A DNA stretch of 64,000 bases from Pseudoduganella violacea. GTDB lineage: Bacteria; Pseudomonadota; Gammaproteobacteria; Burkholderiales; Burkholderiaceae_D. Location of the stretch: positions 558,001 through 622,000 of the forward strand of contig NZ_JACHXD010000001.1 in the NCBI RefSeq assembly GCF_014191875.1, read 5' to 3'. The notes below the pieces were generated by a model that saw only the letters and a program-made list of their open reading frames with translations, had not been told where the DNA came from and did not search any database. This document shows, piece after piece, positions 8,981 to 13,458 of the stretch (within the stretch, counting starts at the first letter, position 1; each line of letters starts with the position of its first letter). Made by a program: the position numbers and the translations under genes.

Positions 8981-9010
8981 TTGACACCTGATTCGGGACG
9001 GGTGCAGAAT
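8981..9010 (+). promoter_or_regulatory. Probable sigma-70 promoter of the rtcB operon
   Basis: TTGACA (8981-8986) is a consensus -35 box, followed after 18 bases by CAGAAT (9005-9010), a 4-of-6 match to the -10 consensus. Initiation would fall near 9017, giving a leader of about 210 bases before rtcB. No sigma-54 motif is evident, unlike the RtcR-controlled enterobacterial rtcBA operons. Confidence 0.65.
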
Positions 9011-9057
9011 CCGCTCCACTGATTTTTTGTTCAACCCAATTCTTAGAAAGGACGACC

Positions 9058-9096
9058 ATGCCACGTACGGCTATCACATCGCAGCACACTCGATAG
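9058..9096 (+). CDS. Putative 12-aa leader peptide of the rtcB operon
   Basis: A short frame MPRTAITSQHTR with an AGAAAGGA ribosome site 7 bases upstream lies inside the presumed rtcB leader RNA. Its TAG stop overlaps the first base of a stable hairpin (9096-9118) and precedes a terminator. This order (promoter, ribosome site, short ORF, alternative hairpins, structural gene) is typical of translation-coupled attenuation. No run of one amino acid stands out, so what would be sensed is unknown. Too short for coding statistics; the case rests on the ribosome site and context. Confidence 0.45.
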   Translation: MPRTAITSQHTR

Positions 9097-9230
9097 CCCT
9101 GAGTAGCGCGCTCGGGGCCAGGCAATCTTGCCGCCCTGAGCCGGTCGTTCTTTTGACATGAACCCCGGTGAGGAAACTTGCTGGGGTTTTTTGTTTTCCA
9201 AAACCCCGGCGTAACGAAAGACGTTATGCC
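9096..9230 (+). promoter_or_regulatory. rtcB leader RNA with mutually exclusive hairpins
   Basis: Five structures can be drawn. P: 9096-9103 with 9111-9118, 8 bp. U: 9141-9150 with 9160-9168 (CCGG and GTTC pairing with GAAC and CCGG). T: the terminator 9161-9188. AT: GCTGGGGTTTT (9180-9190) with AAAACCCCGGC (9200-9210). S: GGCGTAACG (9208-9216) with CGTTATGCC (9222-9230). U competes with T, T with AT, and AT with S. S encloses the rtcB start codon (9226) in its 3' arm and the GAAAG ribosome site in its 5' arm and loop. Both transcription and translation of rtcB could therefore be switched. Pairings are read directly; function is inferred. Confidence 0.65.
9161..9192 (+). terminator. Intrinsic terminator inside the rtcB leader
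   Basis: Arms of 12 bases (9161-9172 and 9177-9188) pair throughout, allowing G-U pairs, around a GAAA tetraloop, and six T residues follow (9187-9192). It lies downstream of the predicted promoter and upstream of rtcB, with no full gene before it. A transcript from 9017 would end near 9192 as an RNA of about 175 bases. Confidence 0.8.
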
Positions 9231-10434
9231 AATCAAACAAAGCCTGCACAAAGGCCTGGTGCCTGTGCACATCTATACGGATGACATCGATCATTCGGCC
9301 ATCCAGCAACTGCTGAATATTTCAAACCTGCCCATCGTGCATCCGCACGTGGCGGCCATGCCCGACGTGCATGCCGGTATCGGCGCCACCGTCGGCAGCG
9401 TGATCCCGACGCGCGGCGCCATCATTCCGGCCGCCGTCGGCGTCGACATCGGCTGCGGCATGAATGCCGTGCGCACCACGCTGACCGCCAGCCAACTGCC
9501 CGACAGCCTGGCCCGCGTGCGCAGCGCGATCGAAACGCTGGTGCCGGTCGGTTTCGAGCAGCACGCCTTCGACAAGGTGCGCGGCTCGGCCCATGCCCGC
9601 GTCGGCCGTCCGCTGAACGACCGCCTGGACCGCATCGTGGCGCGCCACAAAGGCATCATGAAGATGCAGCACAAGTTCGCGCAGACCTGGATCTGCCAGA
9701 TTGGCACGCTGGGCGGCGGCAACCACTTCATCGAGTTGTGCATCGATGAGGCGCAGCGCGTGTGGATCATGCTGCATTCGGGATCGCGCGGCATCGGCAA
9801 TGTCATCGGCCGCTACTTCATCTCCGCCGCGCGCAAGGAAATGATGCGGCACAAGGTGAACCTGCCGGACCGCGACCTGTCCTACTTCAGCGAAGGTTCG
9901 GAACTGTTCGACGATTACGTGGAAGCGGTGGACTGGGCCCAGGACTACGCCATGCTGAACCGGCGCGAAATGATGCGCCGCGTGGTGGCTGCACTGGAGC
10001 CGCATGTTCCGCCGTTCAAGCTCGATGGCGAGGCGATCAACTGCCACCACAACTACGTGGCGCAGGAATCGCACTTCGGCCACAAGCTGTACGTCACCCG
10101 CAAGGGCGCTATTTCGGCGCGCGAAGGCGAGCTGGGAATCATCCCCGGCAGCATGGGCGCCCGCAGCTACATCGTGCGCGGCAAGGGCAACGAGGAATCG
10201 TTCTGCTCCTGCTCGCACGGCGCGGGCCGCCGCATGAGCCGCAGCGAGGCGAAACGCAAATTCAACCGTTTCGACCTGGCCGAACAGACCGAAGGCATCG
10301 AATGCCGCAAGGATGGCGGCGTGGTGGATGAAATCCCCGCCGCCTACAAAGACATCGACCAGGTCATGGCGCACCAGTCCGACCTCGTCGAAATCGTGCA
10401 CACGCTGAAGCAAGTCGTGTGCGTGAAAGGGTAA
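9226..10434 (+). CDS. rtcB: RtcB-family RNA ligase
   Basis: The 402-aa product is an RtcB ligase, which joins RNA 2',3'-cyclic phosphate or 3'-phosphate ends to 5'-OH ends using GTP and Mn2+. Visible active-site elements are VGVDIGCGMN with Asp74 and Cys77, GGGNHFIEL, HSGSRGIGN, CHHNYV, and SHGAGRRMSR with the His (331) expected to be guanylylated. The start MPIKQSLHKG at 9226 follows a GAAAG ribosome site; the frame upstream runs through the terminator and is unlikely to be translated. It heads an operon with a 48-aa protein, an AAA+ ATPase and a vWA protein. No RtcA cyclase or RtcR regulator is nearby. Confidence 0.95.
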   Translation: MPIKQSLHKGLVPVHIYTDDIDHSAIQQLLNISNLPIVHPHVAAMPDVHAGIGATVGSVIPTRGAIIPAAVGVDIGCGMNAVRTTLTASQLPDSLARVRSAIETLVPVGFEQHAFDKVRGSAHARVGRPLNDRLDRIVARHKGIMKMQHKFAQTWICQIGTLGGGNHFIELCIDEAQRVWIMLHSGSRGIGNVIGRYFISAARKEMMRHKVNLPDRDLSYFSEGSELFDDYVEAVDWAQDYAMLNRREMMRRVVAALEPHVPPFKLDGEAINCHHNYVAQESHFGHKLYVTRKGAISAREGELGIIPGSMGARSYIVRGKGNEESFCSCSHGAGRRMSRSEAKRKFNRFDLAEQTEGIECRKDGGVVDEIPAAYKDIDQVMAHQSDLVEIVHTLKQVVCVKG

Positions 10435-10437
10435 GTC

Positions 10438-10584
10438 ATGAAAGTAACCATCAAACTGCCGAAACCGCGCAACCCGCTGGCCGTCCTGGCACGCCAGCGC
10501 AAGGCGGGAGGCCACCAGCGCAACGAGCAATCGCGGCGCGAATTGAAACAGCAACTGCGCCGCCAACTGGCGCGAGAGGAATAA
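10438..10584 (+). CDS. 48-aa basic protein between rtcB and the AAA+ ATPase
   Basis: The ATG is three bases after the rtcB stop, and the stop is four bases before the ATPase ATG. The product MKVTIKLPKPRNPLAVLARQ... is strongly basic (about 14 Lys/Arg) and probably forms a long amphipathic helix in its second half (RRELKQQLRRQLARE). The tight spacing on both sides strongly suggests a translated gene. A role in binding RNA or bridging RtcB and the ATPase is only a guess; no family is recognised. Confidence 0.7.
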   Translation: MKVTIKLPKPRNPLAVLARQRKAGGHQRNEQSRRELKQQLRRQLAREE

Positions 10585-10588
10585 GTAC

Positions 10589-11662
10589 ATGCAATCTGCA
10601 ATCATGTTGAACCAGGAGCAGGCGATCGACTTCCTGCTGCACGTAGCGATCACGCGTCCGGTATTCATGTGGGGTCCGCCGGGCATCGGCAAGAGCGCGC
10701 TGGTGCGCCGCTTTGCCGACGCGGTGGGCATGGAGTGTGTGTCACTGCTGGGCAGCCAGCTGGCACCGGAAGACTTGCTGGGCATTCCGCAGATCGACGG
10801 CAAATGCTCGCGCTTCTTCCCGCCGGCGAACATCGTGCGCGACGAACCGTTCGTGCTGTTCCTGGACGAGCTGAATGCGTCCTCGCATGAGATTCAGAAG
10901 GCGTTCTATTCGCTGATCCTGGACCAGCGCATCGGCGAATACAGCCTGCCGAAAGGAACGGTCGTCATCGGTGCCGGCAACCGCGCCAAGGATGCGGCCA
11001 TCGTCAAGCCTATGCCGTCGGCGCTGGTGAACCGCATGGTGCATATTCACCTGCGTTCGGACCACCGCCAATGGCTGGCGTGGGCGGCCACGGAGGGCGG
11101 CATCCATCCATGGGTGCTGGAGTACATCCAGCTGCGTCCCGACCACCTGTGGAGCGAGCCGCCGAAGCATGAGGAACCGTTTTCCACGCCGCGCAGCTGG
11201 CATATGCTGTCCGATGCGCTGAATTCCTTCGGCGAGGAGGCCAGCGACGATATGCTGGACGCACTCGCCTACGGCCTGCTGTCGCCGAACCATGCCGGCA
11301 ACTTCAAAGGCTTCCTCAAGCAGCTGCGCCACAAGCACGGCCTGCACGCCATCCTGAAAGGCGAGCAGCATTGGCCGGATGCGCCGGGGGACCGCGACGT
11401 GTTGTACTTCCTGGCGCAATCGTTCCGCGCGCATCTGCTGAAGGAATTGCCGGCGGAAGAAGCGTCGGTGCGCAGCACCCACCATGCGCTGTCGATGCGC
11501 GCCAAGGACATGCTGCGCGACCTGGCGCGCATCAGCGTCGAAATCGCGCAGTCGATCCTGGGCGAGGATGGCGAAGGCCGCCGCCTGCCAGCCTGGTTCC
11601 TGGTCGAAGTGGCGCGCGACTTGCCGCGCCTGGCCGGGCGCGGCAAGAAAGAGAGCGCATGA
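10589..11662 (+). CDS. MoxR-like AAA+ ATPase
   Basis: The 357-aa product has Walker A GPPGIGKS (29-36), Walker B LFLDELN (90-96) and sensor region VIGAGNR, the pattern of MoxR/RavA-type AAA+ ATPases. Such ATPases act as chaperones or remodellers with a vWA-domain partner, which is encoded immediately downstream with an ATGA overlap. An alternative start at 10604 (MLNQEQ) is possible. The rtcB linkage suggests action on RNA ligase or RNA-protein complexes, but that is inference. Confidence 0.9.
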   Translation: MQSAIMLNQEQAIDFLLHVAITRPVFMWGPPGIGKSALVRRFADAVGMECVSLLGSQLAPEDLLGIPQIDGKCSRFFPPANIVRDEPFVLFLDELNASSHEIQKAFYSLILDQRIGEYSLPKGTVVIGAGNRAKDAAIVKPMPSALVNRMVHIHLRSDHRQWLAWAATEGGIHPWVLEYIQLRPDHLWSEPPKHEEPFSTPRSWHMLSDALNSFGEEASDDMLDALAYGLLSPNHAGNFKGFLKQLRHKHGLHAILKGEQHWPDAPGDRDVLYFLAQSFRAHLLKELPAEEASVRSTHHALSMRAKDMLRDLARISVEIAQSILGEDGEGRRLPAWFLVEVARDLPRLAGRGKKESA

Positions 11663-13458
11663 GCAAGGACCAAAAGCAGGATTCGGCGACGCTGGCGCGG
11701 CAGGCCGGCATCGTGATGGTGCAGGCCCACCTGGTGCTGGGGGCTGTCGCCAAGGGCGCCCGAATCTGCATCGACGAAGGGCAACACCATGTGCGCGCGA
11801 AAGGCTGGGTCGCCGTTGCGCTCAATGGCACCATATGGCTGCATCCAAAGCGGCGCGCACGGCCGGAGGAGTGGGCCAGCGTCATCGGCATCGTGTTGTC
11901 TTGCCTGGGCCTCGGGATGGTGCGCCAGCGTGAGCCCGCCGCGCTGTGGGAAGTGGCCAGCCTGGTGACGGCCTTGCGCTTTTGCGCGGAGCTGAAGCTG
12001 GGCGAGCTGCCGGAAGAGTGGCGCTTGCCCGAATGCGAGGACGCCAGCGTGGAAAGCCTGTTCCAGCGCTTCTGCATTGAGGGTTGTCCGGAACCCTTGC
12101 AGGCGTGGTATGCCGATATCGGCGGCGGCGAGCCCTTGTTCGTCGCACTCGATGAGAAGCTGTTGCCATGGCAGCGCAAGATACTGTGGCATGAGCTGCT
12201 GGCGGATGGCATTGCGCGCGGCGTCGGCAGGGCGATTGCCATCGCTGGCGGCGCGCCGGCGGACCAGGCGATCAAACCGCAAAGCCGCGAGTACCGCGCG
12301 CGTCGCCGCATGATGGATTGCTATCCCCTGCTTGGCGCGCTGGCGGCCAGCTTCGACCTGGAGAACGATATCCGCATCTGCCAGCAATACGATATCCGCG
12401 TTGCCGCCATCGATGTTGGCGCGCGCCGCATCTGGATCAATCCGGCGGCTGGGCTGAACGACGATGAAACCCTGTTCGTGCTGGCCCACGAACTGCTGCA
12501 TGCGGGCCTGAACCACGCGTCGCGGCGGCGCGGACGCGATCATGTGCTGTGGAACGTCGCCTGCGATTTCGCCATCAATAGCTGGCTGATCGAAATGCAG
12601 GTCGGCGTGCCGCCCGCCATCGGCCTGCTGTACGACGCCGCGCTGGCGGGACAGTCCGCCGACGAAATCTACGATGGCCTGGCAAGCGATATGCGCCGCG
12701 CGCGCAAGCTGGCCACGCTGCGCGGCGCCGGCGCGCCCGATTTGATCGGCGAAGACAGCGGTGGCCAGTTCGCCGATGCCGAGGAATACTGCCGCCGCGC
12801 GCTGGCGCAAGGCATGGACCGCTGGGAGCACGATGGCCGCCGCGGCACGGTGCCGGCCGGCCTGCTGGAGGAGATCCGCAGCCTGGCGCAGCCGCCGATC
12901 CCCTGGGATGCCCGGCTGGCGCACTGGTTCGACGAGCGCTTCCCGCCGCTCGAAATGCGCCGCAGCTATGCGCGGCCATCGCGCCGGCAAGGCGCAACAC
13001 CGGATATTCCGCGTCCCTCGCTGAGCAAGCCGCCCGAGGAGGAACGCAAGAGCCGCGTCTTCGCTGTGCTGCTCGACACCTCCGGTTCGATGGAGCCGGC
13101 CATGCTGGGAAAAGCGCTGGGCGCGATCGCCAGCTATGCCATGGCGCGCGACGTCATCGCCGTGCGCCTGGTGTGCTGCGATGCGGCGGCCTACGACTGC
13201 GGCTGGGTCGAGCCGGAAAACCTGCTGCACCGTTTCACCCTGCGCGGACGCGGCGGCACCGTGCTGCAACCGGGCTTCGACCGCCTGCGGGAGCTGGCGA
13301 ACCAAGGCGAGCTGCCCGCGCATGGCCCGGTGCTGGTCATCACCGACGGCTGGTGCGAAGACAGGCTCGAAACCCGCATGGACCACGCCTACCTGATGGC
13401 CGACGGACGCCGCCTACCCTTCACACCACGCGGCGAAGTGTTCCACATCACCCCATAG
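11659..13458 (+). CDS. vWA-like metallopeptidase-type protein (MoxR partner)
   Basis: The 599-aa product combines a zinc-peptidase motif HELLHAGLNH (277-286) in its middle with a C-terminal von Willebrand A-like domain bearing a MIDAS motif DTSGSM (from Asp473) and VITDGW. This layout matches the predicted metallopeptidase/vWA-like family (DUF2201 type) usually encoded with MoxR ATPases. No signal peptide is present. The start overlaps the ATPase stop (ATGA at 11659), so the two are likely translationally coupled. The first 250 residues are not recognised. It ends at a palindromic repeat, closing the operon. Confidence 0.85.
   Translation: MSKDQKQDSATLARQAGIVMVQAHLVLGAVAKGARICIDEGQHHVRAKGWVAVALNGTIWLHPKRRARPEEWASVIGIVLSCLGLGMVRQREPAALWEVASLVTALRFCAELKLGELPEEWRLPECEDASVESLFQRFCIEGCPEPLQAWYADIGGGEPLFVALDEKLLPWQRKILWHELLADGIARGVGRAIAIAGGAPADQAIKPQSREYRARRRMMDCYPLLGALAASFDLENDIRICQQYDIRVAAIDVGARRIWINPAAGLNDDETLFVLAHELLHAGLNHASRRRGRDHVLWNVACDFAINSWLIEMQVGVPPAIGLLYDAALAGQSADEIYDGLASDMRRARKLATLRGAGAPDLIGEDSGGQFADAEEYCRRALAQGMDRWEHDGRRGTVPAGLLEEIRSLAQPPIPWDARLAHWFDERFPPLEMRRSYARPSRRQGATPDIPRPSLSKPPEEERKSRVFAVLLDTSGSMEPAMLGKALGAIASYAMARDVIAVRLVCCDAAAYDCGWVEPENLLHRFTLRGRGGTVLQPGFDRLRELANQGELPAHGPVLVITDGWCEDRLETRMDHAYLMADGRRLPFTPRGEVFHITP

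Follow-up and report, generated by a model that had tools for sequence, protein, structure and literature searches.

The window analysed here (the whole stretch of 64,000 nucleotides of Pseudoduganella violacea DNA) carries rtcB on its forward strand, followed by genes for a small basic protein, a MoxR-like AAA ATPase and a DUF2201 metallopeptidase/VWA protein, and preceded by a conserved leader RNA whose match ends 36 nt ahead of rtcB (Table 1). A sigma-70-type promoter lies upstream of the leader, and transcription would start just downstream of it, near position 9017. Taken alone, the promoter scan is weak evidence: this was the sole sigma-70-like match between 7500 and 11000, where 0.7 matches are expected by chance.

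Table 1. The rtcB leader and its downstream genes in window coordinates, and GNAT-type leader copies at other loci
Feature	Position	Strand	Basis
Sigma-70-type promoter, TTGACA (8981-8986), 18 nt spacer, CAGAAT (9005-9010)	8981-9010	+	promoter scan; similar boxes in homologues
Conserved leader RNA	9046-9190	+	model R1 match, 119.6 bits
Segment a, leader ORF's ribosome site and 5' strand of closing stem P1	9046-9057	+	
Leader ORF MPRTAITSQHTR, 12 codons, ATG 9058, stop TAG 9094-9096	9058-9096	+	
Segment b, partner of b' over the stop codon	9069-9075	+	fold, covariation
Segment b', holds the ORF stop codon	9092-9098	+	fold, covariation, homologues
Segment c, partner of d if free of ribosome	9096-9104	+	predicted folds
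Segment d, partner of c (ON) or e (OFF)	9110-9118	+	predicted folds, covariation
Small hairpin P4, 4 pairs, fits both states	9121-9132	+	fold, covariation
Segment e, partner of d (OFF), partly in antiterminator (ON)	9133-9141	+	
Antiterminator hairpin, 9135-9150 with 9160-9173	9135-9173	+	predicted
Segment f, partner of a (no ribosome) or g (ON)	9143-9154	+	predicted folds
Intrinsic terminator g:h, 9160-9172 with 9177-9189, GAAA loop, then T-rich tail	9160-9189	+	
Segment i, possible partner of h (9183-9190) in read-through RNA	9200-9207	+	predicted
Hairpin with rtcB start codon, loop AAAGA	9208-9230	+	
rtcB	9226-10434	+	PF01139, 436 bits
Small basic protein, 48 aa, KPRNPL motif, no known family	10438-10584	+	
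MoxR-like AAA ATPase	10589-11662	+	AAA_5, 41.4 bits
DUF2201 metallopeptidase/VWA protein	11659-13458	+	
GNAT-type leader copy	L143:6899-7049		
GNAT-type leader copy	L149:7083-7233		
GNAT-type leader copy	L151:4751-4901		
GNAT-type leader copy	L152:7001-7147		
GNAT-type leader copy	L154:7001-7151		
GNAT-type leader copy	L136:7001-7147		

The leader is more stable than all of 200 shuffled sequences (folding z = -6.98). Its minimum-energy fold comprises the closing stem P1 (12 pairs, 9046-9057 with 9143-9154), which takes in the ORF's ribosome site, a stem round the ORF stop, an arm at 9110-9141, the terminator and a hairpin over the rtcB start. Two competing helices (9096-9104 with 9110-9118, and 9110-9118 with 9133-9141) are predicted to connect the position of a ribosome on the ORF to the terminator. 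A first-pass annotation of this DNA had proposed a promoter, a short ORF with its own ribosome site and a GNRA-loop terminator ahead of rtcB, and all of these are present: the TTGACA/CAGAAT boxes, an ORF whose ATG follows an AAAGGA site, and a terminator of 13 pairs with its GAAA loop, the pairs being a feature of the sequence and termination itself predicted. The antiterminator that it placed at 9141-9150 with 9160-9168 turned out to be the core of a larger predicted helix, and its downstream pairing (9180-9190 with 9200-9210) recurs, slightly trimmed, as the h:i pairing of the non-terminator fold. P1, the stop-codon stem and the two competing helices had escaped it. Its general proposal, a chain of base-sharing alternatives that reads like a transcription switch, is supported by the folding and covariation analyses below.

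In a first DNA search, 20 of 145 family genomes had matches; after L017-L021, counted as chance, were dropped, 16 copies in 15 genomes were left, and these were aligned with MAFFT (alignment A1) and made into the model R1. R1 matched 87 of 392 family genomes at an E value of 0.001 or better; its strong matches, scoring at least 58 bits, numbered 79 copies in 73 of the 392, and the matches outside this set, one at 43.9 bits (L160) and the rest below 39, were all treated as chance. The genome of P. violacea itself has a single strong copy, the next R1 match scoring 19.6 bits. Searches at 1e-6 of 399 genomes sampled from the order and 274 from the class, run with filters under which weak matches are lost, found the leader only in G000 and in one further member of the family. 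Named genomes scanned with a pattern yielded 33 loci (19 in Janthinobacterium, four in Collimonas, four in Undibacterium, one in Massilia glaciei and five in MAGs, of which two are labelled Rhodoferax), and the pattern was absent from the viral contigs scanned. Judged from its sequence, the leader is a real, conserved RNA without an Rfam family at threshold, as none reaches its gathering score in the 64-kb window. The best match below threshold is His_leader (RF00514; 24 bits, E = 0.095, gathering score 49); this and other weak matches over the terminator (SdsR, NsiR1, anti-hemB), as well as one to Burkholderiales-2 inside rtcB, were set aside as terminator-driven or chance. A tRNA-like element was also considered and rejected, ARAGORN finding none in the window.

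For comparison among homologues we used an alignment of 84 rows (A2), made of 79 fetched matches, the window and four named loci, in which L073 and L063 repeat L099 and L139. The 43.9-bit match L160, which has no ORF, was excluded from the ORF counts, leaving 83 rows, and from the folding scan, and was kept within A2 for both helix covariation tests. The homologues are close kin, and the counts are therefore not independent. Promoter-like boxes occur at most 110 nt upstream in 75 of the 83 rows according to a loose pattern. A short ORF of 9-16 codons follows a purine-rich ribosome site in all 83, its translation being predicted only, and ends in TAG in 82 rows and in TAA in one (L159). A TAG in frame with the start codon is found at one fixed position of the switching helix in 82 of 83 rows. 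Reading from the start, this structural stop comes first in 81 of 83, the exceptions being L159 and L114, where an earlier in-frame TAG cuts the ORF two codons ahead of the structural stop. The distances from start to structural stop in these 82 rows are 34, 37, 40 or 49 and differ by whole codons, unlike the spacers between non-coding segments, which vary by single bases. The N-terminal peptides vary by group (MPRTAI, MFEQAGSK, MYQQAS, MPRNTA, MRNFAI). Because start, frame and stop are kept among homologues, and because the stop codon lies inside a switching helix, the short ORF is likely the sensor of the system and not incidental to it.

The helices of the resting fold are conserved as pairs. 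In A2, 95.6% of the cells are paired, against at most 55.3% in controls with slid partners, and both partners have changed in 18 of the 38 pairs (5.8 in shuffled alignments), so that the leader passed the check for compensatory changes put forward in the first-pass annotation. None of 500 shuffles reached the observed value on any of five measures, and in the closing stem P1 (helix 1) five of nine pairs have changes on both sides. A2 was fitted to nearly the resting structure, which favours that structure; the MAFFT alignment A1, older than the model, already shows the helices, with some pairs changed on both sides. The ON helices taken with P4 are paired in 92.8% of cells, and their covariation score exceeds that of all 500 shuffles. 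However, six doubly changed pairs, against a shuffle mean of 4.7, are reached by 52 of the 500 shuffles, and the support for the ON helices is thus mostly conservation: the ON-specific helices hardly vary, and neither do segments c, d, e and g. Such near-invariance would fit bases that have two partners. The antiterminator's two innermost pairs are absent from 29 and 38 of 80 distinct rows.

The predicted behaviour of the leader was obtained by folding 78 homologues (L159 and L160 excluded) up to just short of the 3' strand of the terminator, a ribosome being represented by masking all bases up to 12 nt beyond the first base of its A-site codon. The antiterminator has a mean probability of 0.09 in the ribosome-free leader. 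This rises to 0.95-0.98 when the A site lies 4-10 codons ahead of the stop, is 0.66 at three codons ahead, and drops to 0.11-0.16 for the last two codons and for the stop itself. The leader is accordingly predicted to be OFF without a ribosome, ON with one positioned 4-10 codons ahead of the stop, and OFF again with one at the last two codons or the stop. The competing helices follow the same course, c:d having a probability of 0.94-0.97 and d:e of 0.02-0.05 in the stalled state, against 0.01 or less and 0.96 with a ribosome at the end of the ORF. When the stretch from the stop to g was shuffled 300 times, an equally large switch appeared three times for the window, three for L092, two for L103 and eight for L148; the exception among the five leaders tried is L140, which is predicted to antiterminate without a ribosome and to show no switch, 66 of its 300 shuffles being as good. 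Over the 78 homologues, the probability of the antiterminator in the free state exceeds 0.5 in 9%.

At equilibrium the terminator prevails. With c free and no downstream RNA, it is favoured by 11-20 kcal/mol in eight leaders; once segment i has been made, it is still favoured by 2.7 kcal/mol in the window and by 0.8 to 17.5 (mean 6.6) kcal/mol over 37 of the 51 rows in which rtcB is the next gene. As the terminator is more stable in every state, the ON state must rest on kinetics. In the GNAT-type leader L149, the energies of the stalled and stop states hardly differ. The h:i pairing is predicted in 27 of the 37 rtcB rows folded. We also considered that this pairing might open the hairpin holding the rtcB start codon, an idea left unsupported, the start codon being paired whichever fold is adopted (probability of being unpaired 0.03 and 0.08 on average over the same 37 of 51 rows). 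The hairpin itself is of the type GGCATAAC...GTTATGCC, with outer arms that a loose pattern picks out in 47 of 51 rtcB rows, and is possibly a second, translational control.

Together, the leader has the anatomy of a ribosome-mediated attenuator, with a leader ORF, a terminator and a predicted ribosome-dependent antiterminator, and very probably acts as a transcription attenuator of this kind on rtcB. This interpretation is based on the conservation of the leader, the covariation of its resting fold and the upkeep of its ORF, to which folding adds the three predicted states; that the RNA is made, that ribosomes stall on it, that rtcB output follows, and the nature of the inducing signal are what we infer from them. 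A polymerase starting near 9017 would make the leader with its 12-codon ORF. If no ribosome is present, the helices P1 (a:f), P2 (b:b') and d:e would form, and the terminator g:h would end transcription. If the ORF is translated promptly, the ribosome at the stop would cover b' and c, leaving d:e to form, no antiterminator, and again termination. A ribosome stalled at least four codons ahead of the stop would leave b' and c free, and pairing of c with d would release e and f, which would pair with g before h is made and let the polymerase read into rtcB. Read-through would extend to the genes for the small basic protein and the MoxR-VWA pair, and in the longer RNA the h:i pairing would help to hold the ON form. 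Since a stalled ribosome would give the ON fold, slowed translation, whether through inhibitors, damaged ribosomes or damaged tRNAs, would induce an RNA repair ligase. As to the cause of the stall, general translation stress is our safest guess and tRNA damage the most interesting one.

The genes that follow the leader vary. The next gene is rtcB in 51 of the 83 rows (three with split matches), a GNAT gene in six and neither in 26; rtcB is thus not the next gene in 32 of 83 rows and may not be the only or the main target. Among the 26 rows with neither, 24 are directly followed by a basic protein of 56-60 residues with a KPRNPL-type motif, and in a 25th (L097) the small protein was seen by eye. 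In rows with rtcB, the same basic protein, of 47-60 residues, lies within 2.2 kb after it in 40 of 51, one of the 11 rows without it having less than 2.2 kb of DNA. Three examples of the protein gave no Pfam match at E = 1 and none over the NCBIfam cut-offs. From its recurrence next to the leader, the small KPRNPL protein may be the most constant of the leader's targets. A second leader copy lies ahead of one or two GNAT genes in relatives of the window's genus (six rows, Table 1); the one GNAT protein tested shows weak similarity to RimI and to spermidine acetyltransferase. Remnants of rtcB lie between the leader and the next gene in L144 and L147, and by eye in L102, which suggests that rtcB can be lost while the leader stays.

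Among other explanations, the closest keeps the same attenuator and makes its ORF a dedicated tRNA sensor, acting through Asn, His, Tyr and Asp (NAY) codons in the 3' half of the ORF. NAY codons are read by queuosine tRNAs, which colicin-E5-type nucleases cut, so that a ribosome would stall once RtcB's own substrates were cleaved, and their repair would be induced. NAY codons do make up 149 of 450 codons after codon 5 in frame 0, against 5% and 14% in the other frames and a nucleotide-shuffle mean of 87.6 (sd 8.1); with one sequence per cluster (25) they are 55 of 176 against a shuffle mean of 36.6, one shuffle in 2000 being as high, and the choice among them differs by lineage (N, H/N or Y/D/H). 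However, part of this excess is explained by an A-rich, G-poor loop. Moreover, the ORF in the window has one NAY codon; such codons are missing beyond codon 5 in five of 83 rows, two of which lack them altogether; in Janthinobacterium they sit among the last three codons, for which an OFF or mixed state is predicted; and diverged leaders of other Burkholderiales show no excess by eye. For these last four reasons the NAY sensor is kept only as a rival, and we hold it to be unlikely. Similarly, there is only a small chance that the leader senses damage directly, its control codons being those of tRNAs cut by anticodon nucleases, so that a broken tRNA would stall the ribosome and switch on its own repair ligase together with the small basic protein, which perhaps acts on the stalled ribosome.

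A stand-alone small RNA, Y-RNA-like or bound by RtcB and ended at about 9192, is less probable still. The first-pass annotation had suggested such a released RNA of about 175 bases as a partner or substrate of RtcB, and the length of the terminated RNA, its long closing stem and the presence of leader copies ahead of other genes would suit a free RNA. Nevertheless, TROVE/Ro60 gave no match in the P. violacea genome (a control search was positive in Deinobacterium), the ORF keeps its frame, and there is no Rfam match at threshold; that the leader also fronts genes other than rtcB speaks against a role tied to RtcB. The Y-RNA reading, prompted by the closing stem, was dropped on the lack of a TROVE match and on the ORF evidence. 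A metabolite riboswitch ahead of rtcB would equally be a conserved structured RNA with a terminator and a possible antiterminator, but here the most conserved bases lie in the switching helices and not in an unpaired pocket, and about a quarter of the leader is an ORF whose frame persists while its sequence changes from group to group; we regard a riboswitch as highly improbable. Hardly more credible is a constitutive terminator in a relic leader, with rtcB expressed from another promoter: the equilibrium preference for the terminator in all states and the loci that keep the leader with rtcB remnants would agree with it, but the promoter boxes, the ORF frame and the competing helices are conserved, and the small gene so regularly follows directly in rows without rtcB or GNAT next.

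The attenuator reading can be compared with the his operon leader, in which a leader ORF is combined with OFF helices alternating with ON helices. The window leader follows the same alternating-segment logic as RF00514, but has one His codon and no His run in its ORF, rtcB downstream, and an extra closing stem over the ORF's ribosome site. A nearer counterpart is armZ (PA5471) of P. aeruginosa, described in portions of two papers as an 'RtcB-like RNA ligase' under the leader peptide PA5471.1 and as an RtcB-like anti-repressor of MexZ (PMC12057347, PMC13041342). The attenuation proposed there has complete translation leading to the terminator and a stalled ribosome to transcription; activation follows from an amber codon placed at position 3, induction upon loss of tRNA 3'-end repair (Cca) acts through codons 3 and 4, and the PA5471.1-armZ system responds to ribosome-targeting antibiotics, as given in those portions (PMC12057347, PMC13041342). 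In the corresponding part of the review, the mechanism still needs confirmation (PMC12057347). Like the window, this system has a leader peptide ahead of an RtcB-family gene, although control in the window is something we infer. Unlike armZ, the gene in the window is a canonical rtcB accompanied by the small basic protein and MoxR-VWA genes, and codons 3-4 of PA5471.1, compared by its description only, are Gln-Phe, unlike those of the window leader.

In Salmonella, the rtcBA operon depends on the protein activator RtcR, which binds or senses tRNA fragments according to part of the source (PMC7790460). This RtcR/sigma-54 system likewise induces RtcB upon RNA damage, through a protein, whereas the window has a sigma-70-type promoter and a cis RNA. 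The P. violacea genome as a whole gave no RtcR (PF06956) match, a control search being positive in E. coli, and the known route of rtcB control therefore appears to be absent. The claim of the first-pass annotation that no leader switch had been described stands for canonical rtcB, for which we found no leader-peptide or transcription-attenuation control in a literature search with most subscription journals outside it, and falls for the RtcB-like armZ, where a leader peptide is on record. The kind of attenuator is thus a known one with a precedent on an RtcB-family gene; as far as we have seen, what is new is the RNA family itself, along with the genes that it accompanies and its occurrence on a canonical rtcB.

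RtcB was found in 35 of 150 genomes of the order at 1e-50, and the upstream DNA was read at 29 RtcB loci besides the window. A similar plan in unlike sequence is present at six of the seven next-closest rtcB loci (L192-L198). In these six (L192-L197, 73-80% identity), a GC-rich terminator lies 20-49 nt before the gene. Upstream of the terminator, five have a short ORF preceded by a ribosome site, and L197 has an ORF with a weak site, seen by eye; the automatic scan missed that ORF, and also L194, where the best-scoring terminator lies farther up. By eye, their leaders look unlike that of the window, and their peptides are not NAY-rich. A near terminator was absent at the other 23 of the 29 loci. 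Of three RtcB2-PrfH loci over the TIGR03073 cut-off (the window RtcB scores 150.6 bits, against a cut-off of 271.8), two, L161 and L163, have an ORF of 12-13 codons with a good ribosome site 184-200 nt ahead of the listed start (MKNTLLPFADLFS and MQQLHLQYLFGI). RtcB2-PrfH operons thus resemble the window in the short ORF ahead of the gene at two loci, and differ from it in that a scan of the three found no terminator. At L161, the end of the ORF is by eye complementary to a stretch just ahead of the gene.

If the attenuator operates as proposed, it would represent a route to RNA repair beyond RtcR, in which failing translation would be read directly and repair switched on. This leader, armZ and the ORFs ahead of diverged rtcB and RtcB2-PrfH genes together suggest that control by leader peptides has arisen, or been retained, on more than one occasion in the RtcB family. 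The model of the leader and the small KPRNPL protein also provide a sequence handle on other genes that are perhaps induced by ribosome stalling.
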